Source: Lachnoclostridium sp. Marseille-P6806 (GTDB lineage: Bacteria > Bacillota > Clostridia > Lachnospirales > Lachnospiraceae). From it: 64,000 nucleotides of DNA. A program made the translations under genes and the position numbers. Positions 1,300 to 62,843 of the stretch are shown one piece after another (positions within the stretch are counted from its first letter, which is position 1; every line of letters starts with the position of its first letter). The notes beneath the pieces are model-generated. The model searched no databases. It saw only the letters and a program-made list of their open reading frames with translations, and had not been told where the DNA came from. The DNA is taken from positions 62,001 through 126,000 of the forward strand of contig NZ_LR130577.1 of the NCBI RefSeq assembly GCF_900625025.1, written 5' to 3'.

Positions 1300-1311
1300 G
1301 ACAGCGTAGTC

Positions 1312-1535
1312 TCCATGCCGAAGCGCTTTTTGCGAGGCGCGCACCGCAATCGCCCAGCGCCAGCGCGCAGGGCTCAGAGCCGCTTTGCGGCTCGTGCCGT
1401 CCCTCTACCTGACAGCATTCTTCGTTTGCTGAAAGGTCCGCACAAGCGATTTTGCGGCTGCGATCAGAGGCAATTTGGGCTTCGACACAAATTGCTGTGT
1501 GCAAAATCAGCGCATCAGCATCAGCGTGATTTTGT
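1312..1535 (-). repeat. Dispersed intergenic hairpin repeat, copy C (between pstC and pstA)
   Basis: Mosaic repeat of about 220 bp. Read on the minus strand it starts with an AAAATCACGCTGATG module, passes through GCAATTTGTGTCGAAGCCCAAATTGC and GCAGCCGCAAAATCG hairpin modules, then a module with GGGACGGCACGAGCCGC, and ends with GCGCTTCGGCATGGAGAC just before pstA. The same modules recur near 4.75, 7.35, 32.2, 35.2 and 62.5 kb. Module order differs from the copies at 4.75 and 7.35 kb. It supplies the pstC stop codon. Confidence 0.75.
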
Positions 1536-2402
1536 ATCCCCTTTCCTCATGATGGCATTGGGCACCGCGTTCAGCAGCATGATGAACAGAAACAGCACCA
1601 GACCGATCGAAAACAGCGCGTTTCTCTGCAGGGAGCCGACGGCGGCATAGGACATTTCCGAGGCGATCGCCGTCGTCATGAAGCGGACGGATTTGAGCAA
1701 CTCCGGCATATTCGCCACATTTCCGGATACCATGATGATCGCCATCGCTTCTCCGACGGCACGTCCGACGCCCAGTACGATGGAGGCGGCGATTCCGCTG
1801 CGTGCCGCGGGAACCGATATTTTCAGATAGATTTCATACGGCGTCGCGCCGAGGGCCATGGAACCCTCCTCGTATTCTTTCGGCACAGCCTCCAGCGCCG
1901 AGACGGACACGCTGACGATGGACGGCAGAATCATGACCGCCAGAACCACGATCGCCGCCAGCAGCGTCGCGCCCGACGCCAGATGAAAGGCGCTCTGGAT
2001 AAACGGAACAAGAACAATCATTCCCACCAGCCCGTACACCACCGACGGGATTCCCGAAAGAAGCCGGACCGCCGTTTTCATCATGCGGGCCGTTCCCGCG
2101 GAAGCCGCTTTGGAGAGGTACAATGCGGTCAGCAGCCCGACCGGCGCCCCGATCAGCACCGCTCCCGCCGTCCCGTACATACTCGTCAGGATAAACGGGA
2201 GAATGCCGAATGACGGCTCGGCCGCTGTGGAGCGCCATACGGTACCGGACAGAAACGGCACCAGACCGATCGTCCGGATGGCCGGAATCCCCGAGATAAT
2301 CAGATACACGGAGATGCAGAGTACAAAGACAACCACTGCCAGACCGCAGAGCAGGAACACCATGTGCGGAATCGCTTCCGACATTTTCTCATTCTTTCTC
2401 AT
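1521..2402 (-). CDS. pstC: Phosphate ABC transporter permease PstC
   Basis: First membrane subunit of the Pst phosphate importer, 293 residues, which is the usual length. About six hydrophobic helices are visible, together with the family segments LSGIPSVVYGLVGM and the cytoplasmic EAA loop EYEEGSMALGATPYEIYLKI, and GVGRAVGEAMAIIMVSGN near the C-terminus. The ATG overlaps the TGA of the preceding pstS remnant (ATGA), a translational coupling typical of pst operons. The stop codon lies inside the intergenic repeat, so the last few residues (KGDTKSR) may not be ancestral. This is the only gene of the cluster that looks complete. Confidence 0.9.
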   Translation of the reverse strand: MRKNEKMSEAIPHMVFLLCGLAVVVFVLCISVYLIISGIPAIRTIGLVPFLSGTVWRSTAAEPSFGILPFILTSMYGTAGAVLIGAPVGLLTALYLSKAASAGTARMMKTAVRLLSGIPSVVYGLVGMIVLVPFIQSAFHLASGATLLAAIVVLAVMILPSIVSVSVSALEAVPKEYEEGSMALGATPYEIYLKISVPAARSGIAASIVLGVGRAVGEAMAIIMVSGNVANMPELLKSVRFMTTAIASEMSYAAVGSLQRNALFSIGLVLFLFIMLLNAVPNAIMRKGDTKSR

Positions 2403-3009
2403 TGTGCGGGGACCACTCCGGCTTTTTCAATCAGCTCATGCACCTCTTCCGAAATCATGTAGTCGAAGAACGCCTGCGCCGCGTCGCCAAGCTCAGCTCA
2501 GACCACGATGTGATGCTGCCCGTATAGACGTCCGCGATCTGCTCGACGCTGAGATCCTCCAGCGGATTCGCCTCATTGACGATGATGGCAATTCCGTCCT
2601 TTGCAATCGTCGTCTGCGCAAGACCCTTGCTCTTTTCTTCCTCTTTCAGATCTCTCGATGCAAGACCGATATCGCAGGTGCCGTTCCCCGCCGCCTCGAT
2701 GCCCGTTCCCGAGCCAGTGGCGTCGTAGGTGATGGTCACACCGCTGTTCTCCATCATGAACTGCTCCGACAGAAGACCGATCACCTTTTCCATCGAGGTG
2801 GAACCGTTGACTGCAATATTCCCGGAAAGCTCAGCCGGCATTTCCGCCGCGCTCTCCTGCGAAGCCGCCTCATTCGAAGCGCTCTCCTGCGGGGCGGCCG
2901 TCTCGGGCTGCGTTCCGCCGCAGCCTGCGAGCAGCATTGCCGAAGAAACCAGTGTCACCGCCGCAGCCGTCATTCCTTTTCCCATCTTCCCTGTCATAAA
3001 CTTTCTCAT
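2399..3009 (-). pseudogene. pstS: Phosphate-binding lipoprotein PstS, internal deletion plus frameshift
   Basis: The 5' part encodes a lipoprotein signal with lipobox LLAGC and the start of a PstS domain (GNIAVNGSTSMEKVIG; DIGLASRDLKEEEK; VYTGSITSWSEL). Translation then leaves frame and stops. In another frame immediately downstream lies a clear PstS C-terminus (GDAAQAFFDYMISEEVHELI ... GVVPAQ), whose TGA overlaps the pstC start. Roughly 100 or more residues from the middle of the protein, including most phosphate ligands, are missing. The junction carries a short direct repeat (GAGCTGAGCT), which suggests a slippage-type deletion. Start is the ATG behind GGAGGAAAAT. The gene cannot make a working binding protein as it stands. 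Confidence 0.8.
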
Positions 3010-3098
3010 ATTTTCCTCCGTTTTCAAACACATCCGACGGTTTCCTTATTAACAGCTATGATCATAACGGTCAAAGATCAATTCTGTTATCATATTCC

Positions 3099-3805: not shown

Positions 3806-3955
3806 GATGTCTGCCTCCATCCATCTGCCATGTTCCGGTTTTCTGTTCCATTCCCTGCGCAATCCATAAATCTATACTCCCGGCAACGCAATCACCTCCT
3901 CTGTGCCGCTGACGCAGCCGTCTCCTCTGTAAATCTCCATATCGGAGCGTTCCCG

Positions 3956-3995
3956 GCGAGGCGCGCCGCAAAATCCGCGCAGATCGGATTTCCCC
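3956..3995 (-). repeat. Short fragment of the dispersed intergenic repeat (copy K)
   Basis: Matches only the GCGCGGATTTTGCGGCGCGCC hairpin module shared with the larger copies near 4.8 and 62.57 kb. It lies in the leader of the bL25-like gene. Confidence 0.45.
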
Positions 3996-4012
3996 GGCTT
4001 CTTCCCGGATAT

Positions 4013-4333: not shown

Positions 4334-4741
4334 CTATGCCTCGATTACCCGGAAGCCGTTGCGAAGCAGGAGCTCCGCCGTCACGCCCGGCCCCTCGGTC
4401 AGCGTTCCGGTAAAGCTCCCGTCATACCGCTGCTTCACGCCGCAGCTCGGACTTCTCGGCTGCAGTATGATGAGATCGGGCTGTTCCCTCCGGGCAAGCT
4501 CCAGACACTGCTGCGCGCCGGAGCGAAATTCCCGGTTTACATCACGGCCATCCCTCGTGGTCACTCTGCCCGCCACGATTTCTGCGGGGACGCGCGGCGT
4601 CGGCAGACCTCCCATCACCTCCGGACAGACGGAGATAACTTCATGCCCCGCAACAAAACGAAGAACGCTCTCGTTCCGGTTATTTCCGCCGTTGTATTTG
4701 CAGTTTTCTCCCAGAAGACAGGCACTGACCATGATTTTCAT
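4334..4741 (-). CDS. DUF523 family protein
   Basis: 135-residue protein with the full set of DUF523 motifs: N-terminal VSACLLGENCKYNGGNN, then CPEVMGGLPTPRVPAEI, then PSCG and YDGSFTGTLTEGPGVTA. The conserved cysteines (in ACLLG, CKY, SVCPE, SPSCG) are those that bind an iron-sulfur cluster in family members such as the thiouracil desulfurase TudS; substrate here is unknown. The length is usual for the family. The start is preceded by GGAGGA, which is the end of dispersed repeat copy A. Confidence 0.85.
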   Translation of the reverse strand: MKIMVSACLLGENCKYNGGNNRNESVLRFVAGHEVISVCPEVMGGLPTPRVPAEIVAGRVTTRDGRDVNREFRSGAQQCLELARREQPDLIILQPRSPSCGVKQRYDGSFTGTLTEGPGVTAELLLRNGFRVIEA

Positions 4742-4751
4742 CGGCGATTAA

Positions 4752-4977
4752 TCCTCCATGCCGAAGCGTTTTTTAGCGCGGCACGCGCCGCAAAATTCGC
4801 GCAGGCGGTTTTGCGGCTGCGATCAGGGGCTATTTGGGCTTCAGCACAAATAGCGTGTGCAAAATCTCTGCGCCAGCGCGCAGAGATGCGAGCCGCTTCG
4901 CGTCTCATGCCGTCCCACTACGTAACAGCTCTTTTCGCTTACGGAGCAAATCATCGCATCAGCGTGATTTTTCACAC
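4752..4977 (-). repeat. Dispersed intergenic hairpin repeat, copy A
   Basis: About 225 bp. On the minus strand, in order: TGTGAAAAATCACGCTGATG; a module with GTTACGTAGTGGGACGGCATG and the hairpin TCTCTGCGCGCTGGCGCAGA; AGATTTTGCACACGCTATTT; hairpin CTATTTG...CAAATAG; GCAGCCGCAAAACCGCC; GCGCGTGCCGCGC; and the end CGCTTCGGCATGGAGGA. The end provides the ribosome binding site of the DUF523 gene. The first bases supply the stop codon that cuts off the MATE fragment behind it. Confidence 0.8.
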
Positions 4978-5252
4978 TACTCTCTCGGTGTGTCCCGCGC
5001 CGAAGCTCTGCGAGGTATAGGCGGCGCCCACGACAGACAATCCGATGGCAATCGAAAAGAAGAAAAAACTGATGGCATTCGTCGAGCCAACCGCCGCGAG
5101 TGCATCCGGTCCGAAAAATCTGCCGACAATGATCGAGTCCGACAGATTGTAGAGTTGCTGAAAAACATTGTGCCGATCCCCATCGGAAGAAGAAAGCGGA
5201 GCAGCAGGCCTGTCGGTTTTCCCTCCGTCATATCCAGTGCACCGTTTCTCAT
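4972..5252 (-). pseudogene. MATE family efflux transporter, 5' fragment with frameshift
   Basis: Only the first 90 or so residues of a MATE (NorM/DinF type, normally about 450 residues) multidrug antiporter remain. The first frame gives MRNGALDMTEGKPTGLLL and LPMGIGTMF; after one extra base in an A5 run (5161-5165) a second frame gives FQQLYNLSDSIIVGRFFGPD and AVGSTNAISF...SQSFGAGHTERVV, the classic MATE N-terminal half motif. The sequence then runs directly into repeat copy A, which provides TGA. So two lesions are present: a homopolymer frameshift and loss of the 3' 80 percent of the gene. Confidence 0.85.
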
Positions 5253-5325
5253 TCCACTGTCCCTTTGCCCGAACACGCTTTCTTCCCGTTTCTGATTTTT
5301 CTGTTATTCCGCAGAGCATTCTGCC

Positions 5326-6892: not shown

Positions 6893-7372
6893 GAAAGCTC
6901 TCCCAGCATCTGCTCCGGATTCTCTGCCGCTTTCACCTTATCAAAGGCTTTCTCGATCACGCCGTTTTCATCGATCAGATAGGTCGTCCGGACCACTCCC
7001 ATAAACGTCCTGCCGTAGCTCTTCTTTTCTTTCCAGACATCATATGCCTGAATCACCTCTTTTTCTGTGTCCGAGAGCAGCGTAAACGGCAGCCCGTGTT
7101 TTTCTTCAAATTTTTTTTTGAGAGGCCACACTGTCCTTGCTCACGCCGAGCACGACCGCCCCTTTCTCACGAAACTGCGGGTACAGCTCCCCGAATGCGC
7201 AGGCCTGCTTCATGCAGCCGGCCGTCATGTCTTTCGGATAAAAATACAGAATGACTTTCTGCCCCCGGTAATCAGACAGACGCCTCTCCTCTCCGTTCTG
7301 ATCAGCCAGCGCAAATTCCGGTGCTACGATTCCAATTTCAATCCTGACTCCGAAGCACTTTGTGCCGGGCAC
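6889..7372 (-). pseudogene. bcp: Bcp/PrxQ-type peroxiredoxin, frameshifted
   Basis: Two adjoining frames together make a complete thiol peroxidase of the Bcp family: IVAPEFALADQNGEERRLSD, LYFYPKDMTAGCMKQACAF (resolving and peroxidatic cysteine region), then, after one extra A in a run of nine (7111-7119), KKFEEKHGLPFTLLSDTEKE to GVVRTTYLIDENGVIEKAF. With eight A residues the frame would be continuous. The normal peroxidatic motif TPGCT reads TAGCM here. The first residues (MPGTKCFGV) are encoded by dispersed repeat copy B, so the native start codon seems lost or is an ATT. The homopolymer lesion could be a sequencing error or a real or phase-variable inactivation. Confidence 0.8.
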
Positions 7373-7555
7373 GCGCCCTCAAAATCCGTACAGGCAGTTT
7401 TGCGGCTGCGGTCAAAAGCAATTTGGGCTTCGGGACAAATTGCCGTATGAAACATTTCCGCGTCGGCGCGCAAGGCGCCGAGCCGCTTCGCGTCTCATGC
7501 CGCCCCCCACGTAACAGCGCTTTTCGCTTACGAAGCAAATCACACCGATACGCTG
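7348..7555 (-). repeat. Dispersed intergenic hairpin repeat, copy B
   Basis: About 208 bp, same module order as copy A (GCTTCGTAAGCG, GTTACGTG, GACGCGAAGCGGCTCGG, CAATTTG...CAAATTGC, GCAGCCGCAAAACTG), ending GTGCTTCGGAGTCAGG where other copies read CTTCGGCATGGAGG. The altered end destroys the usual ribosome binding site and lies at the 5' end of the bcp remnant. It lies about 40 bp beyond the distal end of the CRISPR array. Confidence 0.75.
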
Positions 7556-7592: not shown

Positions 7593-9301
7593 ATCTTACA
7601 ACCGCCACGCGGGGAATACGAGGAGAATATTTGGGTATTTCAATACTTTCAAGGATCATCCCCGCCACGCGGGGAATACCTGGGAGAAGTCAGACAGCTA
7701 TCCTGCTGTAGAGGATCATCCCCGCCACGCGGGGAATACAAATGCACAAAGGAGGGCGCAGCCTATGACCTAGGATCATCCCCGCCACGCGGGGAATACT
7801 TTTCGGGAGGCGTTTTGGAGGGGGAAATCCTTGGATCATCCCCGCCACGCGGGGAATACTACCGGTGACACTCTTACGCTCACGGTGGACGGAGGATCAT
7901 CCCCGCCACGCGGGGAATACAAGAAAACTGAGATAAGTCAATTTCAAAATGAAGGATCATCCCCGCCACGCGGGGAATACCTGACTGCCGCGATCGCGCG
8001 GAGTATCGTATCAGGATCATCCCCGCCACGCGGGGAATACGGCGTTCCATAAAACTGTCCACTTGGCTTTCCAGGATCATCCCCGCCACGCGGGGAATAC
8101 TTTTTTCTTCCAAGTACTGGATGAACGGCGAGTGCATCATCCCCGCCACGCGGGGAATACTTATCACGTAGGCGAAACCGTCAAGGTGGACAAGGATCAT
8201 CCCCGCCACGCGGGGAATACCAATCTGTACGAAGCCAATCTGCGCGAAGCCAAGGATCATCCCCGCCACGCGGGGAATACGGTCTGACATGATGCTCCGC
8301 ACCTCTTCAGCCGGGATCATCCCCGCCACGCGGGGAATACGCAGACATCATTTCTCGGTTTCCGGCCAGATTGGGATCATCCCCGCCACGCGGGGAATAC
8401 ATCTCCTCAACTCTTACTTCGCCAAACTCCTCAGGATCATCCCCGCCACGCGGGGAATACTGTTATACCATGCCACCTAATAGGTGGCAAGTAGGATCAT
8501 CCCCGCCACGCGGGGAATACGGACATGTGGGACAACTTTTCATTTGCGCAAAAGGATCATCCCCGCCACGCGGGGAATACGCTTCTTAAACTGCTTGTCA
8601 AATCGGGAAGTAGGGATCATCCCCGCCACGCGGGGAATACGACAACTTTTCTCCGAGATGAAAAACACCGTTAGGATCATCCCCGCCACGCGGGGAATAC
8701 ATATGCCTGCCCTGATTTTGGAATGTTTATCGGGGATCATCCCCGCCACGCGGGGAATACATGTGGACAGTCAGGTGGATGTGTGGCAGATGGGGATCAT
8801 CCCCGCCACGCGGGGAATACAAGTCGTGTCCATCTTCGTCCTTGCAACAGTGAGGATCATCCCCGCCACGCGGGGAATACGCTTGTTTTTGCGTAGTCCA
8901 TTTCTTCGATGCAGGATCATCCCCGCCACGCGGGGAATACGAGTGCTATATCGAAGAGGAGTTTGAACTGCGGGGATCATCCCCGCCACGCGGGGAATAC
9001 GAGAAATGCGCGTGAGAACGAGCCGACGGCAGAGGATCATCCCCGCCACGCGGGGAATACGCATTTATCGGATGGAAAAAGGCCAGTGGGTATAGGATCA
9101 TCCCCGCCACGCGGGGAATACACGTGGCATCACCGCTATGGAAAACGGCAGCAGGGATCATCCCCGCCACGCGGGGAATACGAAATTTCCTTTTTCCATA
9201 GCTTACGATATTTAGGATCACCCCCGCCACGCGGGGAATCCCCGTCATGCACGACTTGCGGAACCGCCGAAATAGGATCATCCCCGCCACGCGGGGAATA
9301 C
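7593..9301 (-). CRISPR. Type I-E CRISPR array, 29 repeats and 28 spacers
   Basis: 27-bp repeats, starting GTATTCCCC and ending ATGATCC on the minus strand around a CCCCGCG/CGCGGGG-type palindrome, alternate with 33-34 bp spacers at a period of 60-61. The base after the repeat is C or T in nearly every unit, so the functional repeat is probably 28 nt with the last base taken from the PAM. By analogy with E. coli the transcript reads on the minus strand, leader at the right next to cas2. The distal repeat (7593-7619) is degenerate in its last nine bases, as expected of the old end. Two internal variants occur: one base change at 8134-8160 and two changes at 9215-9241, the second repeat from the leader. 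All spacers differ; none was seen to match elsewhere in this window. Confidence 0.97.
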
Positions 9302-9345
9302 ACTAAAAAATCCCTGAAAATCCGCCGTTTTCACGCTCTGTCGTG
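9302..9345 (-). promoter_or_regulatory. Short CRISPR leader
   Basis: Only 44 bp separate the first repeat from the stop of the cas2-dnaQ gene. On the minus strand it reads GCACGACAGAGCGTG, GGATTTTCAGGGA, then TTTTTTAGT before the first repeat. Any leader elements longer than this must lie inside the 3' end of the cas2-dnaQ gene. No separate promoter was recognised, so the array may be transcribed with the cas operon. Confidence 0.5.
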
Positions 9346-10224
9346 CTATATTTCCTTTAGTTTCTCATAGAGCCGGTAGGTCAGATAGCAGTCGTTATAT
9401 GCTCTGTGCAGTTCTTTCTGTTCAAAACCCAAAAATTTCACCAATGTCGACAGCTTATAGTCCGGTGCGCCACGCACTCTGCGTCTGGCCAGCGCCAGCG
9501 TATCCACGCACGGATTGCCCGGCGTTTTGATCCCCGCTTTCCGGCAGCCGGACTGAATAAAGCCGACATCAAACGCAGCATTATGGCTTACAATTTTATC
9601 TCCTCTCATGAATTCCAGAAGAGAATTCAGCGTCTCTTTTAAGCCTTTTCCCTCCTCCTGCAATATCTCATCGGTAATCCCTGTCAGCTCACGGACGGCT
9701 TCCGGAATTTTTCCGGAGATTCTGACATACTGATGAAACGAGCCGCGGATCTCTCCCTGCTCTATCCGCAGCGCCGCCATTTCAATGATATCGCATTGCT
9801 GTATGGACAGGCCGGTTGTTTCGAGGTCAATGACCACATACGCATCCAACTGCAACTTTTTCTGTTTCGCCGCCCGGATACGGTTTATTTTATGTATATT
9901 CTCAATCCGCGTCTCCGTGATCTTTTCCTGTACGCCGGTTTCCCTATGTCCCGGCAGAGGCCTTTTCATCAGCTGAATCCCGTCAAAATCCACCGGCTCC
10001 CAGTTTGTATTATGCGCACGGAAGCCCATTCTCTGTTCTCCGGCCGCGCTGTAAACCATGGTCGCCTGCCCTGTTTTTATATTTTCACAGATGCGGTCCC
10101 ACAGCTTATCGCGGACCCTGACGCTGATGTTTCCGACATATACGCCTGTATTGATTTCGCAAAGCCACTTTGAAATGTCCCCTCTAAGTTTGGGCGGGCA
10201 GTCTGTCAGGCTTATCACAACCAT
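9346..10224 (-). CDS. cas2: Cas2e fused to a DnaQ-like DEDDh 3'-5' exonuclease
   Basis: 292 residues in two domains. Residues 1-95 are Cas2e (MVVISLTDCPPKLRGDISKW, GVYVGNISVRVRDKLWDRI), the dimeric scaffold of the spacer-integration complex. After a basic linker (about 96-126), residues 127-292 are a DnaQ-type exonuclease with all five DEDDh residues visible: D133 and E135 in VIDLETTGLS, D219 in SHNAAFDVGF, H273 and D278 in HRAYNDCYL. Cas2-DnaQ fusions are known in some type I-E systems (for example Streptococcus thermophilus), where the exonuclease trims prespacer 3' overhangs. It follows cas1 by 8 bp and is the last gene before the array. Confidence 0.95.
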   Translation of the reverse strand: MVVISLTDCPPKLRGDISKWLCEINTGVYVGNISVRVRDKLWDRICENIKTGQATMVYSAAGEQRMGFRAHNTNWEPVDFDGIQLMKRPLPGHRETGVQEKITETRIENIHKINRIRAAKQKKLQLDAYVVIDLETTGLSIQQCDIIEMAALRIEQGEIRGSFHQYVRISGKIPEAVRELTGITDEILQEEGKGLKETLNSLLEFMRGDKIVSHNAAFDVGFIQSGCRKAGIKTPGNPCVDTLALARRRVRGAPDYKLSTLVKFLGFEQKELHRAYNDCYLTYRLYEKLKEI

Positions 10225-10232
10225 GAGCGTCC

Positions 10233-11357
<1,125 letters not shown>

Positions 11358-11379
11358 TTATCCTGTCCGCTGTCCCGCG

Positions 11380-12003
11380 CTATCCCTTTACAATCGTCAG
11401 CAGGCCCATCCCGTAGGCTTTTCCTCTTCCGATTCCGGTACACAGCGTCTTTTCAAAGAGCTCCCGGTTCTTTACCGTCAGAACGCCCTCATAAACCGCG
11501 CCTTTCAGGCTGACTCTCCGGCGCTGCTCTCCTTTCGCGAAAATGTGCCATCCTGTCTCTCTGACCTGAAATTCTCCTTTTTGCAATATAAAGCCGTTCT
11601 TTTCCGCCCGCTCGAGCAGCCATTCCTCCTGCTCCTCCACCGAGCAGCAGGCACGGACCTTTCCTCTTTCTCCGCGGGATACCATCTCGCTTTTTACGGG
11701 GTTCGCCGCCAGCCGGAACCGCCATCGGCTTCCGTTCTCCACCCTATGCAAAAGGGCGTCATAATCTCTCGTTTCCCATGGCTCTCCGGTCCCGTAGCGC
11801 TGCATCACCTGTGTGAGCTCCGGTTTTTCTTCGCTGAGAATGAGCAGGTACAGCTTTTCTCCCAGCGTGTCAATCCGCCACAGCTTTCTTTTCCGTTCCC
11901 CGGCAAACGCACTTTCCACCGCGCCGTGCAGGTTTCCCGGAGAGGAAAGCAGCCGCAGCGTGCTGCGCCGTTTTTGATCCAGCTCCAGCCTAGTCAGAAA
12001 CAT
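11380..12003 (-). CDS. cas6e: Cas6e (CasE/Cse3) crRNA endonuclease
   Basis: 207 residues with two ferredoxin-like folds, the type I-E enzyme that cuts each repeat RNA hairpin and stays bound to the crRNA 3' end. Visible are MFLTRLELDQKRR at the start, a candidate catalytic histidine H26 in SPGNLHGAVESAF, and the glycine-rich RNA-binding loop GIGRGKAYGMGLLTIV at the C-terminus. The 5' end overlaps cas5e by 14 bases. Confidence 0.93.
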   Translation of the reverse strand: MFLTRLELDQKRRSTLRLLSSPGNLHGAVESAFAGERKRKLWRIDTLGEKLYLLILSEEKPELTQVMQRYGTGEPWETRDYDALLHRVENGSRWRFRLAANPVKSEMVSRGERGKVRACCSVEEQEEWLLERAEKNGFILQKGEFQVRETGWHIFAKGEQRRRVSLKGAVYEGVLTVKNRELFEKTLCTGIGRGKAYGMGLLTIVKG

Positions 12004-12676
12004 CCCTCTCCTCCTCCAGTTCTCTCATCGGGTCATGCTCCGCCGTCTCCCCGTCCGTTCTGGCAATCGAAAACGCTTTCACCGCCCGAAAGCCGTATCT
12101 GCGCATCCTCTGATCAAAGGATAGGGGCAGATCATTCTGCAGAACCGTTCCGCCCCCCTGCCCCTCGCTGTCCATGACAATCCGTGCGCATCCGGTGCGA
12201 AGACGGGGGTTTTCATCTGCAAGATACGGCTCGGAGCGCAGTGCGTATTCCAGTCCCGTCTCGCGAAGCCCCAGAACCAGAGGCATCACAGGCGGACAGG
12301 CTCTCCGCCCCAGAAACAGCGGATACGCGGGATGCCGGAGAGCGGTCTCCAGCTCATGCAGAAGCCCCTCGTCTCCCTCTATGCCCACCAGAAATACCGC
12401 GTCGCAGAGATAGCAGCGTTCCGTCACATAGGAAGTCTCCGCATTTCTGGCTGTGTGATAATCCCGCAGAATGACCCCCTCCCGATCGGCCCGCACGCCC
12501 GTCCGAAGAGCGCAGAGGCGGCTCAGATCCCCGTCCCTCGGCAGCCCGAGGGCCGCTGCCAGCAGGCCGATGATGCCGCTCTTGGACGGCTCCCGTCCGG
12601 TTCTTCTGGTCTCAAATTTAGAATCGATTCCCCATGACTGAAGCGGCGCCGCAAATCGAAGTAATAGCGTACTCAT
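11990..12676 (-). CDS. cas5e: Cas5e (CasD) Cascade subunit
   Basis: 228 residues, usual length. N-terminal LLLRFAAPLQSWGIDSKFETR is the standard Cas5e entry, followed by PSKSGIIGLLAAALGLPRD and the mid region YHTARNAETSYVTERCYLCDAVFLV. In Cascade it caps the 5' handle of the crRNA (here AUGAUCC plus one base). It overlaps cas7e by 4 bases and cas6e by 14, typical of strict stoichiometric co-expression. The C-terminal tail (DPMRELEEERDVSD) is acidic. Confidence 0.94.
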   Translation of the reverse strand: MSTLLLRFAAPLQSWGIDSKFETRRTGREPSKSGIIGLLAAALGLPRDGDLSRLCALRTGVRADREGVILRDYHTARNAETSYVTERCYLCDAVFLVGIEGDEGLLHELETALRHPAYPLFLGRRACPPVMPLVLGLRETGLEYALRSEPYLADENPRLRTGCARIVMDSEGQGGGTVLQNDLPLSFDQRMRRYGFRAVKAFSIARTDGETAEHDPMRELEEERDVSD

Positions 12677-13737
12677 CCGTCTTCCCTCTGTACCAGATAA
12701 TCCTCTGCATATTTTTCCACACGATCGAGCAGGTCGTCCCTCGATACCGTATCCATAAAGCCGTGCAGCGCCTTTCCCACCCCCAGCTCCAGGGCGGGCT
12801 CCGCCACATAGTCCTGATAGGTCTCCCTCGCGTAGTTCATCAGGCGTTCCGCCGATTTCTGCACATAGCCGTCCCTGCTTTTCACCGGCTCCTCAAAGGC
12901 TCCGCACAGATTGACGGGCTGATCCTTTCTGCAGGCCGCGTAAATGACATCCGGCCGCGTCCGGTTCCCGAAGCTGTTCTGCTTTCCCGTCGGCATGGAA
13001 ACAATAAACGCCTCCGCGAAGCCCCGAACCACCTTTGCCGCATCCCTGCCGAGCAGTCCTGCGAGCTCGCCCACATTGACGGTCGCATAGCGGTAAAGCG
13101 TCGCGGAATTAAATTCGATGGTGCCGATGTGGCCGGCTCCCGCATTATCCTCCGGGGACAGATCATCCACAGCCGCGAAATAGTCATATTCCGTCTGCAC
13201 TCCATGGGTGGAAATGCTGTGCGCAACCTGCGCCGCGGCATCGTAATTCAGCGACGGATCGGCCGCCACCATTCTGCCGAACAGCGCCATATCATAACCC
13301 GGTTCTCCCTTCAGCGCCGCCTTATATTTCTTTTTATCGCTTTCCTTGGCAACTGCCAGCGCGGCCAGCGCTTTCGCCTGCGCCGGGCTGAAAAAGCAGA
13401 GAACATCGCTCTCATTTTTTTTGCTGTCGATTTTTATGCCGATATATCCCAGCGCTTTCAATGCCAGCCCGTTGGCGTCCGCCTCCGGACGCAGAGCGGC
13501 AATTTCCGCCGCGAGCATATCCACGACCTTTTTCGTCCGGACGCCAAGCTCTTCCCCGGCAAAAATCCTCTCAAATTCCTCTCTCATGGCATGCTTCCAT
13601 GCCTGCGAGGAAACTCTGGCCCGGGTGACGCCTCCATATATCGCCGTTTTGGGGCTTCCCGTATCATCCCTGTTCACACAACTGGGCGGCACGGTCTGCA
13701 GCACATGAAAATCAATATACAAGTTGTTCCTGTCCAT
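12673..13737 (-). CDS. cas7e: Cas7e (CasC/Cse4) Cascade backbone
   Basis: 354 residues, normal for Cas7e, starting MDRNNLYIDFHVLQTVPPSC with the conserved RDDTGSPKTAIYGGVTRARVSSQAWK block, and later AGHIGTIEFNSATLYRYATVN and MPTGKQNSFGNRTRP. Six copies form the helical filament holding the crRNA spacer in Cascade. It overlaps cas5e by 4 bases and begins 4 bases after the cse2 stop. Confidence 0.95.
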   Translation of the reverse strand: MDRNNLYIDFHVLQTVPPSCVNRDDTGSPKTAIYGGVTRARVSSQAWKHAMREEFERIFAGEELGVRTKKVVDMLAAEIAALRPEADANGLALKALGYIGIKIDSKKNESDVLCFFSPAQAKALAALAVAKESDKKKYKAALKGEPGYDMALFGRMVAADPSLNYDAAAQVAHSISTHGVQTEYDYFAAVDDLSPEDNAGAGHIGTIEFNSATLYRYATVNVGELAGLLGRDAAKVVRGFAEAFIVSMPTGKQNSFGNRTRPDVIYAACRKDQPVNLCGAFEEPVKSRDGYVQKSAERLMNYARETYQDYVAEPALELGVGKALHGFMDTVSRDDLLDRVEKYAEDYLVQREDG

Positions 13738-13741
13738 AGTC

Positions 13742-14353
13742 TCACTCTCCTTTGTCTTCTTTTGGCATCAGCAGCATGTCTCTTGTCCGATAGTAATCTC
13801 TCCCCCAGTTCAGTCTGACGGAGGCCCGCTGGTTCAGATCCTGATAGCGGTACAGGTCCTCGGCCAGCGCAGGGTAATCCAGAGGGATCTTCTGCTGCCG
13901 CAGGAGCTGTACAAGGCCTTTCAGATGCCATGCCAGCCCTTGTATATCCGCCCCTGCCGCCAGCGCCTGAACCCGTCTCTGCACCGCCTCCTCGGAAAAT
14001 TTCTCGCGAAGCGACAGAACCGCCATGGCTTTCCCGAGTCTCTGCCCGGCCTCGTACATGTTTTCTGTGCCCGGCTTTTTCCCCTGCTGATGCAGCGCAT
14101 ACAGGGTCAGGGCATCGTATACCGCCCATTCCGCCGGACCCGGCTCCTGCCCCGTACCCTCCAGCTCTTCCGGAAAGTCCATGAAAAGGCTGGCCCAGAG
14201 CTCCGGCATATCTCCCGGCTTTTTGCCGATTCCCCGCCGAAGCCTTGCAAGCTCTGCGCCTGCCGCCGCCTCATTGGGATTCTCCGAAATCTGATGCAGC
14301 TTGTATAAAACGATGTCACGCACCCGTTCCGACGGTCTCTTCTCCTGTGTCAC
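13742..14353 (-). CDS. cse2: Cse2 (CasB, Cas11e) small Cascade subunit
   Basis: 203 residues, helical, with the family hallmarks AAAGAELARLRRGIGKKPGDMPELW near the N-terminus and LVQLLRQQKIPLDYPALAEDLYRYQ with a final RLNWGRDYYRT near the C-terminus. Two copies line the belly of Cascade and stabilise the R-loop. The 5' end overlaps cse1 by 38 bases, an unusually long overlap for the operon. Confidence 0.94.
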   Translation of the reverse strand: MTQEKRPSERVRDIVLYKLHQISENPNEAAAGAELARLRRGIGKKPGDMPELWASLFMDFPEELEGTGQEPGPAEWAVYDALTLYALHQQGKKPGTENMYEAGQRLGKAMAVLSLREKFSEEAVQRRVQALAAGADIQGLAWHLKGLVQLLRQQKIPLDYPALAEDLYRYQDLNQRASVRLNWGRDYYRTRDMLLMPKEDKGE

Positions 14354-15986
14354 GGATTCCCTCCCCTCTTGTGTCTCCGAGCAGTCTGCGTATGTTTCTC
14401 AGCAGACGCTCGTATGCTCCCGGCGCCGTATAGACGATCTCGGCATCTGCTCCCTTTATTTTTTCTTTCCTCTTTCTTCCCATATAAGCGCGGTCCCCCG
14501 CCTCCGCCACGAGCTCGCGCCCCAGCCGCTTCGCAATCCGCCGCTCCTCCTCCAGCCAGAGATCCGTGATCTGCTCCGCCTGCTCTCCTCCGGTTTCCGG
14601 GTCAATCCGCTGAAGCCATCCCCGGAAAGGGATATCCACTCTTTCATAGAACGCTGCTCTGGCCTTTTCCGCGATCTCCGGCTTCCCGTCGCCTCCGCCC
14701 GCCTTGTCCAGATCCTGCGCAAAATAGCCGATCACCTCCGACAGCTTCCGGCAGCGCTCCACCTCCCCGGCGATTCTTTCCCGCCACTCTGCTCCCGCCT
14801 CTGTCAGCAGCTGCGCATGAAACGAAAGCTGATCCGCAAAGGAATCGTCGACGAAAAAGTCCTTATCACCATAGTGCATTGAGGTGACGCGGAAGCGTAC
14901 AAGCTCCTTTCTTCCCAGCATTCTGGTTATTTCTTCGTTCCAGCAGACGACGCCCGGATTTCGCACCGCTTCTTTTCCCTGATTCCTGTCGCTCGGAAAA
15001 ACAGCACCGAAATCTCTCCACATCTGTTTGGCCGGATCATGGCGTCTCGGCTGAAAAACAGGCGGCCGGTCTTTTTTCTCTTTCACGGCTCTCCACACGG
15101 TCATCTGCTCCGAAAAAGCAAATTCCTTGGCGAAAAAGTCTCCACCCAGAACGCGGACGCCCGTCACCTTTTCTTTATTTCTCACAAGAAGAAGTCTTCT
15201 GGACTGCAGCGTCAGCAGCTCGGCCTGATTTTCCGGAAGCGCGATTTCCGTCCGTTCCCCGGCTCTCGGCTTTTCCCTCTCCCAGACCGGGAAATCTTCC
15301 TCCTCCCACAGCTCCGTCCCGTCCTTCAGCAGCGTCAGGTTCAGCATCAACGTCTCAAAAAGGTTTTTCCCCACCGCCGTAATCAGTCCCAGCTTACCCA
15401 GCCAGCCGGCGCCGGGCGAGGGCAGCTCCTTGCCCTTGGGCTTGGCGGAGGTATCGTCATAGCCATTGATATAAAGAAGCCATCGGGCCGCCTGCGCGCA
15501 GCTGAGCTCCTGCTTCGATTCCCCTGAATAAGCCGAAAAGAGCCGCACCTTGTTGCTGCTCTCTGAAATTTCTCCGTTCAGCTTGGCCGCCTCGTACTTT
15601 GTCCCGAGCTCCGCCTCATTCACCTGCCAGAACGGTCTTTCCTCATGGAACAGCCAGAAGCGATCCCTCCACTCATTCAGATAATTCCGGATCGGTTCCT
15701 CGGGCAACTTTCCCAGACGCCAGAGCGTCTCCCATCTGTTTCTGGCGTCCTTCGGGCGCTCGATCGGCGCCTCCTCGCCCGCGGCATTCACTCTGGAAAA
15801 TACCGTATGCAGAACAGCCAGCAGTAAACGAAGCACAGCAATATCCTGCGCGGGCATCTCCCCCCGGATGTCGACATATTCATGCGCGTGTATCAGCGCC
15901 TCCGGCAGTGACAGCTCGCTGACCGCGCCGTTTTTGCCAAGCAGGCAGATCCAGTTTTCCTCGCACAGATTAAATTCCGGCTCCAT
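14316..15986 (-). CDS. cse1: Cse1 (CasA, Cas8e) PAM-recognition subunit
   Basis: 556 residues, a little longer than the E. coli protein (502). N-terminal block FNLCEENWICLLGKNGAVSELSL, then RNRWETLWRLGKLPEEPIRNYLNEWRDRFWLFH with PFWQVNE, then GKNLFETLMLNL and RRHDPAKQMWRDFG match the family. The C-terminal four-helix bundle covers about residues 370-510. Cse1 recognises the PAM and recruits Cas3. It overlaps cas3 by 17 bases and cse2 by 38. Confidence 0.93.
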   Translation of the reverse strand: MEPEFNLCEENWICLLGKNGAVSELSLPEALIHAHEYVDIRGEMPAQDIAVLRLLLAVLHTVFSRVNAAGEEAPIERPKDARNRWETLWRLGKLPEEPIRNYLNEWRDRFWLFHEERPFWQVNEAELGTKYEAAKLNGEISESSNKVRLFSAYSGESKQELSCAQAARWLLYINGYDDTSAKPKGKELPSPGAGWLGKLGLITAVGKNLFETLMLNLTLLKDGTELWEEEDFPVWEREKPRAGERTEIALPENQAELLTLQSRRLLLVRNKEKVTGVRVLGGDFFAKEFAFSEQMTVWRAVKEKKDRPPVFQPRRHDPAKQMWRDFGAVFPSDRNQGKEAVRNPGVVCWNEEITRMLGRKELVRFRVTSMHYGDKDFFVDDSFADQLSFHAQLLTEAGAEWRERIAGEVERCRKLSEVIGYFAQDLDKAGGGDGKPEIAEKARAAFYERVDIPFRGWLQRIDPETGGEQAEQITDLWLEEERRIAKRLGRELVAEAGDRAYMGRKRKEKIKGADAEIVYTAPGAYERLLRNIRRLLGDTRGEGIRDTGEETVGTGA

Positions 15987-18714: not shown

Positions 18715-18803
18715 GAGCATCCTCCGGCCGAAAGAGTCTCTGTGCTTTTGAAGAATATCATTTCCCGAAACCGGAAAAGAATATTTTTAGAAGAGCAGTG
18801 AAA

Positions 18804-28675: not shown

Positions 28676-28682
28676 ATTTTCC

Positions 28683-28715
28683 TCCTTGCCGAAGCACATT
28701 GGTGCGAGGCGCGCG
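28683..28715 (-). repeat. Dispersed intergenic repeat, short copy G
   Basis: Minus strand GCGTCGCGCGCCTCGCACC...GTGCTTCGGCAAGGAGGA, i.e. only the terminal module of the family, again directly before a start codon and supplying GGAGG. Confidence 0.55.
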
Positions 28716-28825
28716 ACGCCGCGCCCCTGCCCCGCGGCACTTCCGTTGATATCAAGAGTATAAAAAACGGCTATGCTTTCTTCCTTAAAAAAACGAACCT
28801 GCTCTTTCAATTTTGTACGCTGAAA

Positions 28826-32228: not shown

Positions 32229-32235
32229 ACAGTTC

Positions 32236-32303
32236 CTCCATGCCGAAGCTCAAATCGCCGTGTGAAAAATCCCTGTGCATCCGCGTGATTTTTCACACGA
32301 TAT
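32236..32303 (-). repeat. Dispersed intergenic repeat, copy F
   Basis: 68 bp, minus strand: TGTGAAAAATC...GGATTTTTCACA perfect hairpin, CGGCGATTTG, then AGCTTCGGCATGGAGGA before the start codon of the binding protein. The minimal form of the family: one hairpin plus a ribosome binding site. Confidence 0.8.
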
Positions 32304-32310
32304 TCCTTTT

Positions 32311-34305: not shown

Positions 34306-35184
34306 TTAATCAGCCATTTTTGTCTGGAGCCGCATATTCAATGACGTAAATATGAGCATTACAATAAACAGCAGAACGGCAAGCGCTGCTGCATAGCCCG
34401 TATTAAGATTCGTGAATGCCTCCATCGTGATCCGATAAGCAATGAGAGCCGTGTCCTCTCCCGGCCCGCCCGACGTCATCGAATATACTAGATCAAAGGA
34501 GGTCAGCCTCCACAGCGTAAAAGGAATCGTCAGAGTCGCTACATTTTTTGCAATCAGAGGCAATGTGATTTTTGTAAAGCACTGTATTCCGCTTGCGCCA
34601 TCCACTCTGGCCGCCTCATAAATATCGTGGGAAATAAACTGAAGTCCTGATAAGACAAGAATGGCAAAGAACGGCAGATCTTTCCAGAGATCCATCACAA
34701 TTACTGCAAATCTGGCCGAGTTCTTATAAATAAGCCAGCTGTAATTAAAATCCGGATTTATGAATCTGCGGATCAGATCATTGATCAGGCCGTAGTCATT
34801 ATTAAAACCCCATTTCGCGGCCATACCGATTACAACGGCAGGCATCGCCCATGGAATAAGAATTATTGTTCTTAAAAACCTCTGTCCCTTGAACTTTATG
34901 TTCAAAATCAGCGCAAGTATGACTCCCATCATAATGTGGAGGATCATAGACGCGGCCACAAAAATCACAGTAAACTCTATACTTGTCAGCACCTTGGGAT
35001 CTCTGAAAGCAAAGATATAGTTTTTAATTCCGCAAAATTCATTTTTCCCCTGCAGCAGCTTAATATCAAAAAAACTGTTGCGAATCGTTGCCGCGATGGG
35101 ATAAAGCGTCGTAAATGCACGGATGGACAAAACCGGTATTACCAGAAGCCATGCGGCTGCCAGTATTGATTTTTTATTTTTCAT
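34306..35184 (-). CDS. Sugar ABC transporter permease (MalF/UgpA type)
   Basis: 292 residues with six hydrophobic helices, first at WLLVIPVLSIRAFTTLYPIA. EAA loop is IYEAARVDGASGIQCFTKITLP. Start is the ATG behind TAGAGGATTATA, whose first part is the end of dispersed repeat copy E. Partner of the permease that follows and of one or both binding proteins in the module. Confidence 0.92.
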   Translation of the reverse strand: MKNKKSILAAAWLLVIPVLSIRAFTTLYPIAATIRNSFFDIKLLQGKNEFCGIKNYIFAFRDPKVLTSIEFTVIFVAASMILHIMMGVILALILNIKFKGQRFLRTIILIPWAMPAVVIGMAAKWGFNNDYGLINDLIRRFINPDFNYSWLIYKNSARFAVIVMDLWKDLPFFAILVLSGLQFISHDIYEAARVDGASGIQCFTKITLPLIAKNVATLTIPFTLWRLTSFDLVYSMTSGGPGEDTALIAYRITMEAFTNLNTGYAAALAVLLFIVMLIFTSLNMRLQTKMAD

Positions 35185-35189
35185 TATAA

Positions 35190-35258
35190 TCCTCTAGGCC
35201 GAAGCCCAAATAGCGTGTGCAAAAATCATCGCATCCGCGTGATTTTTCACACTATTCC
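35190..35258 (-). repeat. Dispersed intergenic repeat, copy E
   Basis: Minus strand: hairpin TGTGAAAAATCA / TGATTTTTGCACA around CGCGGATGCGA, then CGCTATTTGGGCTTCGGCC and TAGAGGA, which is the ribosome binding site of the permease. Nearly identical in layout to copy F. Confidence 0.8.
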
Positions 35259-35274
35259 CCGTCAGTCTCTTATA

Positions 35275-36639: not shown

Positions 36640-36817
36640 TTCCGCCTCCTTAATCCATCGACACGTCATCAGGATGTCTCTGTTTTGTATTTTTAGGTTA
36701 ACAAAGCAAATTGGAATTAAAAATATGATTTATTACTATCTGTTTATGAAAAATTTTGATTTGCAGTTGTCTGACTTGAACGAAAAAATCATTTTGAGAC
36801 AATAGTATAAAGGAAAC

Positions 36818-36846
36818 TCGAAGCGGCTCGCATAAAGCGCTTCGGC
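36818..36846 (+). repeat. Dispersed intergenic repeat, short copy H (plus orientation)
   Basis: CGAAGCGGCTCGCATAAAGCGCTTCGGCATGGTGA, the terminal module only, here on the plus strand and upstream of a plus-strand gene. The usual GGAGGA reads GGTGA, so the ribosome binding site is weakened. It shows that orientation follows the gene. Confidence 0.6.
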
Positions 36847-36859
36847 ATGGTGATTTTTT

Positions 36860-47295: not shown

Positions 47296-48783
47296 TCAAT
47301 GCTCGTAATTTTCAAGTGAGATTGCTTTCAGTCCTCCGTCATCATAAACCGTGAGCTTCAGCTTGTAGGTGAAGTCATCAAACCAGTTATAAACGGTATA
47401 GCCGAGCTCTTTTGAGACAAACGGCTCTTCCTCCGGCTCCCCGTAGGCTTTCAGAATATCCTCGGACGTTGATCCCCATGTAATGCCGTCCGGAAGCATC
47501 ACCTCCGGATACTTGTCCGCCGAGGAGATATCCATGGTAAAGGACCAGACATCGGTATCCAAAATATCCTGCACCTTATCTCCGGTATTCATGAAGCCGA
47601 TGTTGAACCGGACCTTGTCATACCGGTCGTTGTCCAGCGTAATCGTTCCGGTCACCTTATCCCCCGGATTCAGTACATAGCCATCGGCATATCCGTAATC
47701 CGCAAGGTCAAAGCTCCAGCTGTCCCGGAGCTTGGAATAAGGGAACGGAAGCTGATATATCTGCCCGTCCATGGACAGAACCATATCCTGCCACTTTGCA
47801 TCGCCGAGATCCGCGTCCTCTGCGGACTGCCCCGCGGCGGATACCGCGCTCATGACCTCTTCCGGAATCTGAATCGCTCCCACCTCGTTGAAGCGGTCAA
47901 GAATCGTGCTGATGTGAAAGATCCCTATCGTGAACGACACATCCTCATCCGTCTCTCCGACGGCGGAACGGATCATGGCATTCCCCAGCTCCTCAGCATC
48001 CACGTCAAGGCCCGCAGGATACAGTGAGTCCTCATAGATATAGAGCTCTGCCGGTGCGGAGGCCTCGCCAAGATCCATATTGTTGTCTGACATATTGTTC
48101 AGCGCAGAGTTCACCTGCTGCAGGGCGTCCTGCAGAAACTCTCCGGTCAGAGTGACACGGATCACATAGGCATCTTTCCCATTGACCGTTTTTGTCTCAT
48201 CCTCTAGAACGGCATCTGTCCCGCCGTCCGCAATCGCCTCATAGACGGTGCGGGAATACAGACTGCTGTCCTTCGGAATATCCGCCTGCGTGCCGGTCCA
48301 GGTCGTCCCGTCCGAGGTATAAAGATTATATTTTCCATCCTCCTCGACAGAATACATCTCGATTTTCGTTTCCTGATCCTGTCCCAGCACCGAGAGCCTA
48401 ACCGTACCGTTTGTATGTGTAACGAGCGGCTCCTGATTCAGATCAATGGCAAGCTCCATGCCCATGGACAGCTCCGCGCTTTCTTCTCCGGAGTCTATGG
48501 TCGCTTTCAGATCCAGCGTCACAGACTGGGAGACTTCCCTGACTTCGCTCATTTTCTGTATCGTCTGGCCGGCAAGCTCTTCCGCCGTCAGCTTCTTCTC
48601 CGGCTCTTCCGGCGCCTTTGCCGGCGTCTCTGCCGAAGCCTCCTCCGTGACAGGGGCCTCGTCGGACGCCGCCGTTAACGCCTCCTTACCGGAAGCTCCC
48701 GACCCGCAAGCTGTGGCAAAAATTCCAAGGAATAACGCACAGCACACTGCCGCGAGCTTCCCGACCTGCTTTATTTTTTTCAT
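47296..48783 (-). CDS. Secreted lipoprotein, DUF6612/LppX-like
   Basis: 495 residues. Lipoprotein signal with cysteine in FATACGSG, a long A/E/P-rich linker (residues 30-65), then LTAEELAGQTIQKMSEVREVS, the usual entry of the LppX-like/DUF6612 fold that runs to about residue 310 (VSQSVTLDLKATIDSG, VNGKDAYVIRVTLTGEFLQD). The last 160 residues are a separate beta-rich region (WSFDLADYGYADGYVLNPGD and DGITWGSTSEDILKAYGEPEE). Cell-envelope lipoprotein of unknown function. Its leader contains three consecutive hairpins. No operon partner. Confidence 0.75.
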   Translation of the reverse strand: MKKIKQVGKLAAVCCALFLGIFATACGSGASGKEALTAASDEAPVTEEASAETPAKAPEEPEKKLTAEELAGQTIQKMSEVREVSQSVTLDLKATIDSGEESAELSMGMELAIDLNQEPLVTHTNGTVRLSVLGQDQETKIEMYSVEEDGKYNLYTSDGTTWTGTQADIPKDSSLYSRTVYEAIADGGTDAVLEDETKTVNGKDAYVIRVTLTGEFLQDALQQVNSALNNMSDNNMDLGEASAPAELYIYEDSLYPAGLDVDAEELGNAMIRSAVGETDEDVSFTIGIFHISTILDRFNEVGAIQIPEEVMSAVSAAGQSAEDADLGDAKWQDMVLSMDGQIYQLPFPYSKLRDSWSFDLADYGYADGYVLNPGDKVTGTITLDNDRYDKVRFNIGFMNTGDKVQDILDTDVWSFTMDISSADKYPEVMLPDGITWGSTSEDILKAYGEPEEEPFVSKELGYTVYNWFDDFTYKLKLTVYDDGGLKAISLENYEH

Positions 48784-48905
48784 AATTACCTCTTTTCCGC
48801 GAGGCGAATTTCAGATTCGCCGATGCAATCTGCGACTCGGTGCCCCGCACCGATGTCGGAGTTTGAAAGGACTGCATCAGCAGGACTTTCAAACTTTTCC
48901 TCCTG
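48784..48905 (-). other. Hairpin-rich leader of the lipoprotein gene
   Basis: On the minus strand three hairpins follow one another: AGTTTGAAAG...CTTTCAAACT, CGGTGCGGGGCACCG and GCGAATCTGAAATTCGC, then AAAAGAGGTAATT before the ATG. Layout (hairpins ending in the ribosome binding site) recalls the dispersed repeat, but the sequence is different. Possibly a second repeat family or a structured leader. Confidence 0.5.
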
Positions 48906-62440: not shown

Positions 62441-62526
62441 TCATGACAGCATCCGCTTTACAAAGAAATTCTCCAATAATCCCACCATTTCCTCGAAGCT
62501 GTTTCTATTTCTTCTTCCGTATAATC
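62441..62526 (-). pseudogene. C-terminal remnant of a lost gene
   Basis: Between repeat copy D and the terminator a frame reads NSFEEMVGLLENFFVKRMLS then TGA, which looks like the end of a normal protein. Nothing upstream but the repeat, so the body of the gene appears deleted. Product not recognised. Confidence 0.35.
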
Positions 62527-62650
62527 CTCCATGCCGAAGCGTTCCTCAGCGAGGCACGCGCTGCAAAATCCGCGCAGGCGATTTTACAGCTGCGATCAGG
62601 GCTATTTGGCTTCGGCACAAATAGCCGTGTGAAAAATCAGCGCATCGGGC
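62527..62650 (-). repeat. Dispersed intergenic hairpin repeat, copy D
   Basis: About 124 bp. Minus strand: ATGCGCTGATTTTTCACACG, GCTATTTGTGCCGAAGCCAA, ATAGCCCTGATCGCAGC, AAATCGCCTGCGCGG, ATTTTGCAGCGCGTGCCTCG, ending GCTTCGGCATGGAGGATTAT. It now precedes a gene remnant instead of an intact gene. Confidence 0.8.
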
Positions 62651-62843
62651 ACAGAGGAGATGTTTTGTCGCTGAAAGGGTTTCCAAACCGCTAAAGTCTT
62701 TGACGGTTATTCTGTTACATATAAACATAAATAATACTATTATCAATTATACGGTATGGAATTATTATAGAGTTATGATTCAGAAAATTTTCATGCAACA
62801 AATAAAAAGGGCAAATTAGAATTTATGAGAAAGGATAGGGTAC

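Follow-up and report, generated by a model that had tools for sequence, protein, structure and literature searches.

The repeat described here is very probably a new, non-autonomous family of mobile elements, which insert at Shine-Dalgarno sequences (SDs) and carry an SD of their own. A copy measures about 130 nt, or as much as about 310 nt when modules are nested in it. Read in the sense of the downstream gene, the element follows an SD-like flank, begins with (T)AGTGTGAAAAATC and ends in CGCTTCGGCATGG, to which AGGATTA or TGATTTTT and the start codon ATG are joined.

The window, i.e. the whole stretch of 64,000 nt that was analysed, belongs to a genome of 3.13 Mb in 38 contigs (G000). The first-pass annotation had listed nine copies in it, and all nine were recovered by a covariance model (R1) that was trained on 16 diverse copies, three from G000 and none from the window. 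The model also identified a tenth copy, absent from the earlier list, which belongs to a diverged subfamily (Table 1). This subfamily keeps the same design, with an SD before the start codon, and similar forms occur in congeneric species (L041, L043). Six of the nine listed copies end before a start codon on the same strand, located 8–14 nt past GCTTCGGCATGG, while those at 3956, 7348 and 62527 do not; because these three have no adjacent start, the earlier statement that most copies end in this way was right, and "all" would have been wrong. The sole plus-strand copy on that list does precede a plus-strand gene. The ending CTTCGGCATGGAGGA occurs 16 times with up to three mismatches, compared to 2.8 expected occurrences, and none of 100 shuffles reached 16.

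Table 1. Copies of the element in the 64,000-nt window, and parts of the focal copy.
Feature	Position	Strand	Basis and remarks
Focal copy, long form	4753..4979	minus	TAGTGTG... to ...GCTTCGGCATGGAGG; R1 match 4750-4985, E 5e-33; boundaries by analogy with empty sites
Focal copy, hairpin A 5' arm GTGTGAAAAATCACGC	4962..4977	minus	sequence; helix 1 covariation in alignment A2
Focal copy, TAG/TGA stops at 5' edge	4979-4972	minus	sequence
Focal copy, nested module of ~86 nt, 3' side of hairpin A	4867..4949	minus	edges by eye; length classes; 88-nt insert in R1 alignment
Focal copy, hairpin A 3' arm GATTTTGCACAC	4855..4866	minus	sequence; R1 alignment
Focal copy, hairpin B	4829..4854	minus	helix 2 and pseudoknot helix covariation
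Focal copy, hairpin B loop strand GCTGAAGC	4838-4845	minus	pairing with pseudoknot strand possible, one G-U
Focal copy, hairpin C (GCAGCCGCAAAACCGCCTGCGCGAATTTTGCGGCGC)	4785..4820	minus	helix 4 covariation
Focal copy, pseudoknot 3' strand GCTTCGGC	4760..4767	minus	pseudoknot covariation
Focal copy, Shine-Dalgarno GGAGG at 3' edge	4753..4757	minus	followed by start codon of 2-thiouracil desulfurase-family gene 4334-4741
Copy before ABC-transporter permease gene (BPD_transp_1)	1307..1547	minus	R1 E 2e-23; start 13 nt past anchor; module nested in hairpin C
Decayed copy	3931..4006	minus	R1 E 3e-4; no adjoining start
Decayed long copy between AhpC/TSA-family ORF and CRISPR array	7339..7555	minus	R1 E 6e-14 for 7339-7508
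3' remnant, SD directly before gene starting 28675	28680..28730	minus	R1 28678-28828, E 1e-3; start 8 nt past anchor
Short copy before solute-binding-protein gene	32230..32306 visible	minus	R1 32103-32306, E 2e-6; start at 9 nt
Short copy before permease gene	35184..35260	minus	R1 35069-35260, E 3e-12; true 3' edge ~35190; start at 9 nt
3' remnant before histidine kinase gene at 36860	36809..36859	plus	R1 36809-36856, E 3e-4; start at 9 nt
Diverged-subfamily copy, hairpin AAGTTTGAAAGTCCTGCTGATGCAG..., ending AGAGGTAATT before start of DUF6612-match gene	48774..48902	minus	R1 E 4e-8
Copy without most of hairpin A; 3' end intact; no start codon directly after	62523..62696	minus	R1 E 8e-25

Some neighbouring features of the window deserve mention. 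Upstream of the focal copy, a minus-strand ORF (4972-5319) that covers only positions 6–68 of the 161 of the MatE domain terminates at the element's own stop codons; the remainder of this exporter gene is missing there, perhaps through recombination between element copies. Another minus-strand ORF (2455-3033), phosphate-binding-protein-like, matches PBP_like_2 only at positions 6–128 of 267, and the gene looks interrupted or short. A CRISPR array with about 29 repeats spaced 60 nt apart (7593-9303) has a decayed element copy at its very edge and lies beside genes with Cas_CT1975 and Cas3 domains (9346-18720).

The genome-wide covariance-model search proposed in the first-pass annotation yielded at least 96 matches in G000 at E<=0.001, a lower bound as 150 of 1674 first-look candidates were scored; two of the 96 (ranks 38 and 84) are one place. 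The matches are split into 69 on the minus and 27 on the plus strand, mostly with a single strand per contig. Sequence was fetched for 91 of them, and in 86 of these the 3' motif is present within 3 substitutions (anchored copies), leaving five without an anchor. As a qualifying start we counted the start codon of a same-strand ORF 3–25 nt downstream, provided that the ORF has at least 60 codons, or 40 where the end of the locus truncates it. Such a start follows 74 of the 86 anchored copies, compared to 32% (582/1820) of random same-strand positions, and 12 copies lack one. The spacing is narrow, with 57 of 86 starts at 8–9 nt, compared to 3.7% (169/4550) at random and 16 of 194 for GCATGG outside the copies. 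In six other genomes, a start occurs 9–13 nt past GGAAT in 69 of the 74 copies with both ends, and in a pattern-scan set of 91 copies with both ends (loci from L032 on), a start-type codon, its reading frame unchecked, lies 10–11 nt past GGAAT in 81. Proximity to start codons and a bias for the coding strand, both well above chance, thus bear out what the first-pass annotation had suspected: copies are neither mostly intragenic nor free of orientation, and their ending is not ordinary gene-start composition. Divergent starts near the left edge are at background level (22/91 vs 18% for the random opposite strand).

The genes behind the copies are diverse. Eight of ten that were scanned matched an NCBIfam model above its cut-off (pyrB, pyrE, ftsY, purC, lepA, glmM, trpS and tilS), and on ORFs truncated by the end of the locus, guaB and ribF scored below their cut-offs. 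They include genes that are essential in many bacteria. Judged by eye, the proteins downstream of the 74 G000 copies look unrelated. Supply of a stop codon to the upstream gene was considered as well and showed no enrichment, an upstream frame of at least 100 codons ending at the TAG/TGA of the element in 11 of 61 left-end copies, compared to 45% at random.

Copies vary widely in size but fall into distinct classes. Lengths of the 55 fetched copies with both ends cluster at 132–140, 153–155, 220–223 and 307–308 nt, with others at 61–125, 184 and 234 nt. The length step of about 86 nt corresponds to a module that sits either within an arm of hairpin A or within the hairpin C loop, as delineated by eye and seen as 88-nt inserts in R1 alignments, so that the number of modules does vary between copies as had been proposed. 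The postulated minimal form, one TGTGAAAAATC hairpin plus the ending, exists as a shortened form; the full unit comprises hairpins A, B and C together with the 3' pseudoknot strand. Even among the fetched G000 matches of 125 nt or less, a start codon still follows 18 of 23. Once inserted, a copy may lose its 5' part by decay, with selection on the gene holding the SD at the 3' end.

The fold was analysed in an alignment (A2) of 60 matches, 59 of them distinct, which includes the R1 training sequences and four antisense matches of the hairpin A palindrome; it was fitted to hairpins A, B and C, not to the pseudoknot, and pair counts use all 60 rows. Over 42 pairs, 97.3% of the cells are standard-paired and 228 show double changes, compared to 43.6 in shuffled controls that leave shared ancestry in, and far less is seen in slid registers. 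The pseudoknot between the loop of hairpin B and the strand before the SD, taken alone, is 95.3% paired, with 33 double-change cells compared to 6.6 under the same type of shuffling. Complementarity of B loop and 3' strand reaches 8.38, compared to 6.35 for swapped strands (largest swap mean 7.4; 5 of 60 A2 rows left out). The two strands change together across subfamilies (CCGGAGCG/CGCTCCGG, CCGAAGCG/CGCTTCGG, TTCTGAGCGA/TCGCTCAGAA, and further CCGCAGGCAC/GTGCCTGCGG, GTCGAAGCGC/GCGCTTCGAC and GACGAGC/GCTCGTC), with poor pairing in a few rows (L246, L247, L240). The covariation shows compensatory change to have conserved the three predicted hairpins and the predicted pseudoknot. A further hairpin (D), in which the 3' strand would pair with its own 5' arm, performs no better than swapped strands (4.35 vs 4.21), and the conserved partner of the 3' strand is the pseudoknot. 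G-U cells exceed A-C cells (48:27, p 0.02), a modest sign in favour of the sense strand, as RNA or single-stranded DNA, being the molecule under selection.

A pseudoknot with covariation directly upstream of an SD might be expected of a cis-regulatory RNA, responsive to a ligand like a riboswitch or to a protein, in which the 3' strand CGCUCCGG would pair either with the B loop, leaving the SD free, or with GGAG, hiding it. A hairpin between the 3' strand and the SD is indeed possible (mean stem 4.57 vs 3.35 for shuffled strands), and nested folding, a model that cannot form the pseudoknot, finds the SD less exposed after insertion in five of the six filled/empty pairs described below. However, this SD hairpin shows no covariation (91.2% paired vs 91.9% shuffled; 4.57 vs 4.55 swapped), the named downstream genes share no common pathway, and shortened copies remain before start codons. 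We therefore consider regulation in cis an unlikely explanation, and favour a mobile element whose fold probably serves mobility more than regulation.

Sense orientation in leaders and the G-U excess on the sense strand would also suit an RNA-borne element, whose transcript would itself integrate at SDs of mRNA or DNA before being copied back, with its own pyrimidine-rich strand as a guide. In two single folds, the left SD pairs with a CCUCC/CCCC stretch located between hairpin C and the 3' strand, but left flanks in general pair with their own element no better than with shuffled ones (5.47 vs 5.45), and no catalytic core was recognised; we regard this route as decidedly unlikely. Guide pairing between target SD and pyrimidine linker, tried separately on both sides, is unsupported on left flanks and gives a small excess on right flanks (5.72 vs 5.54, sd 0.06). 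Group II introns are characterised by GUGYG...AY ends and a domain V. The 5' edge of the element reads GUGUG, and the empty site L461 puts the right boundary past GGAAT; Rfam returned no intron match in the window or in 15 scanned loci.

Mobility of the Shine-Dalgarno-targeting element is seen directly where orthologous regions lacking it could be compared, namely at six close-range empty sites and at 22 orthologous starts in congeners. The six filled/empty pairs come from G350 and G545, which are sister genomes; each of the two has the filled state in three pairs, and the flanks are 92–97% identical. Eleven of twelve fetched G350 copies were used: three are empty in G545, five are filled (L329, L335, L336, L337, L339), and the remaining ones are L334 (beside an element, with a different upstream region), L331 (without element, with a CGGAATGGAGG end) and L330 (partial match only). 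G545 has 14 copies at E<=1e-8, six of them already covered; of the other eight, four whose two ends were not both recognised by the script were set aside and four were used, with three empty in G350 and one (L454) filled. One G336 copy corresponds to 22 orthologous congener starts without the element, most of which consist of a stop, a short gap, an SD and a start, and one of which (L378) retains a remnant of the element's 3' end. Separately, the ortholog of L331 in G545 (L440) has CGGAATGGAGGTTATC at its gene start with the remainder of the element absent, as though a 3' end had been left over or exapted. For empty sites of the window genome, the best congener matches reach 72–76% identity over short stretches, and an all-against-all comparison of the fetched loci provided no further close empty sites that were usable.

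The element is thus mobile, its copies being present in one sister species and absent from the other. Insertion occurred in sense, at the native SD or a few nt after it, and the gained segment starts with (T)AGTGTGAAAAAT and ends in ...CGCTYCGGAAT followed by an SD, GGAG or a variant of it, whose distance to the start codon is normal. In the clearest pair (L449/L461), native gaggtgtactgatATG has become gaggtgtac-[TAGTGTG...CGGAATGGAGAT]-tgatATG; there is no target duplication, the native GAGG stays upstream, and a new SD has been gained. The gene behind this site encodes a protein with an N-terminus that is ParB-like by eye. In L333/L419, CGGAACGGAGG was gained and the native 3' side has no GGAG; a difference of a few nt at the site may be a small deletion, and the C-terminus of the upstream protein is unchanged, with GTG TGA of the element in place of GTA TAG. 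We infer that the SD belongs to the element, which is clear in these two of the six pairs; in the other four (L332, L340, L447, L457), a short duplication of the native SD could account for the new one. The earlier proposal of a sense insertion at the SD that supplies an SD agrees with placement and empty sites, except that the native SD is usually not replaced: it remains upstream, and another follows the insert.

Insertion in a single orientation at a short motif, hairpins, and the lack of a clear target duplication in two empty sites are features shared with REP or IS200-IS605 type elements, where a Y1 (HUH) transposase moves a palindromic single-stranded DNA element and cleaves behind a short motif, which here would be the SD. 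Genes for Y1 occur in 26 of 46 first-sample genomes and in three of twelve carriers. Nevertheless, PF01797 has no match in G000 and is absent from the other nine carriers, including G350 and G545 (completeness of the latter being unstated), and the left edge has no conserved GTAG (13/91 have G at -3), making an origin of this type very unlikely.

Flanking sequences were also compared for traces of target duplication. Left and right 8-mers were compared in 74 copies, retained from 80 fetched regions, in six genomes. They agree beyond within-genome shuffles strongly at one offset (z 4.1, 0/1000) and weakly at the next (33/1000); per genome, the strong offset is reached by 2 (G336), 20 (G376), 82 (G089) and 425 (G350) of 1000 shuffles, which is significant for G336 and G376 but not for G350. 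Apparent true duplications of 8–12 nt exist at L188, L182, L312 and L367, and a model without duplication leaves them unexplained. Tandem arrangements, where the left flank is itself an element end, may cause part of the agreement. In L076, L158, L180, L311 and L367, the left flank ends in a motif resembling the 3' end of the element (GGAATGGAG.. or a D-like hairpin), which suggests that they inserted into an SD supplied by a preceding copy. The empty sites L449/L461 and L333/L419 contradict a clean 8-nt target duplication in every copy, although the 8-mer signal persists. A classical MITE, mobilised by a DDE transposase that would duplicate about 8 nt of target including the SD, is highly improbable, since in spite of this agreement, mainly at one offset, and of exact duplications at L182, L188 and L312, the ends are by inspection not inverted repeats (GTGTGAAAAATC vs CTCCATTCCGGAGCG / GGAATGGAG) and neither of those two sites has such a duplication.

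In the mechanism that we favour, a folded, non-autonomous element would be placed in sense at SDs, and the SD at its own 3' end would keep the start signal of the downstream gene at normal spacing. The insertion would survive as the carried SD keeps that gene translated, and the 5' edge would offer TAG and TGA in two frames, closing the upstream gene. Mobility is probably what the fold is conserved for, with an enzyme acting in trans recognising it in the form of RNA or single-stranded DNA. Most likely, the elements are tolerated because they carry an SD, which fits both their presence before the genes named above, including guaB and ribF, and the persistence of shortened copies. Among the fetched loci, three candidate spans for a larger autonomous version (left end, ORF, right end) were found, none of them convincing. 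A more far-reaching reading is conceivable, and we hold it only tentatively: the family might be a new class of mobile element addressed to ribosome-binding sites, moving in sense across a bacterial family as a pseudoknotted RNA or single-stranded DNA without a Y1 transposase, bringing its own SD and stops, and possibly acting as a translation switch in which the 3' strand pairs with the B loop or with the SD.

The family is found in Lachnospiraceae plus a neighbouring family. An exact 28-nt pattern occurs in at least 117 contigs; among the 80 matches listed are Roseburia, Eisenbergiella, Acetatifactor, Eubacterium, Lachnoclostridium, and Lachnospiraceae and Clostridia bacteria, with Bacterium C-53 and Lachnospiraceae bacterium P6B14 as non-MAG records. 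One exact 25-nt pattern was found in no viral contigs. In an even sample of the order, 34 of 392 genomes have an R1 match at E<=0.001, with at most seven candidates scored per genome, and these belong to the window's own family and to a second family, f8, plus one partial match in f22. Deep searches of six further genomes returned 62, 32, 99, 26, 21 and 81 copies.

Mobile repeats are usually expected to persist in harmless places. This element appears to persist at the translation start, a very sensitive site of a gene, by bringing the signal that it displaces; the carried SD would allow it to take a position before important genes without silencing them. Given its abundance (21–99 copies in the six further genomes), it probably shapes translation and operon structure in Lachnospiraceae and their relatives. 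The element provides a direct test case for the targeting of SDs, and the empty sites represent natural before-and-after experiments on translation.

The statement that no named family has this structure stands uncontradicted. None of 4227 Rfam families matched the window at gathering thresholds; in 15 loci, most of them carrying relatives, Rfam matched only a tRNA and a glmS, elsewhere in the loci, and a relaxed search of two copies gave matches that were all far below gathering (best AS-pc01, 32.3 bits, threshold 79). No description was recognised in those portions of the open-licence literature, supplements excluded, that were covered (including PMC3049150, PMC4679880, PMC11109978, PMC8632094, PMC8266576, PMC12306157 and PMC3733652), and the comparisons below refer to the corresponding parts of these sources.

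Several known repeats share individual traits with the element. The short heptameric TAACTGA repeats of Beggiatoaceae likewise occur mostly in one orientation directly before start codons, where they overlap the expected ribosome-binding site; they have little SD character and no conserved fold is described in the part of the source covered, whereas our element folds and brings an SD (PMC4679880). MRSC-65-2 resembles it as a repeated, covarying structured motif, often with dozens of copies per genome, but consists of one long stem containing a conserved UYCCGG repeat and in some cases lies close to a transposase gene; the part of the source covered describes no placement at SDs (PMC11109978). 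That study counts 250 mobile or repeat candidates, one of which could overlap the present family. REP/BIME sequences are likewise high-copy, palindromic, extragenic and possibly non-autonomous mobile repeats; REPs, however, are 20–50 nt long and are described as bearing a tag that is usually GTAG and as associated with a Y1-type transposase, TnpAREP (PMC8266576), while our element has no GTAG tag and G000 no Y1-type transposase. The pneumococcal BOX, RUP and SPRITE repeats (PMC3049150) resemble the element in design only: they are also small, intergenic, modular and folding, occur in many copies, are non-autonomous and vary in part between genomes. They are reported to be over-represented between convergent and slightly between divergent genes, in contrast to an element of which nearly every copy lies in sense before a start codon, and which has an SD ending and a pseudoknot and lacks terminal inverted repeats. 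By its behaviour, the element is best grouped with the small interspersed repeats BOX, RUP, REP and Correia elements (named in PMC3049150); compared by their descriptions in the parts covered, it is set apart from all of these by SD targeting, a carried SD, a pseudoknot and ends that are not inverted.
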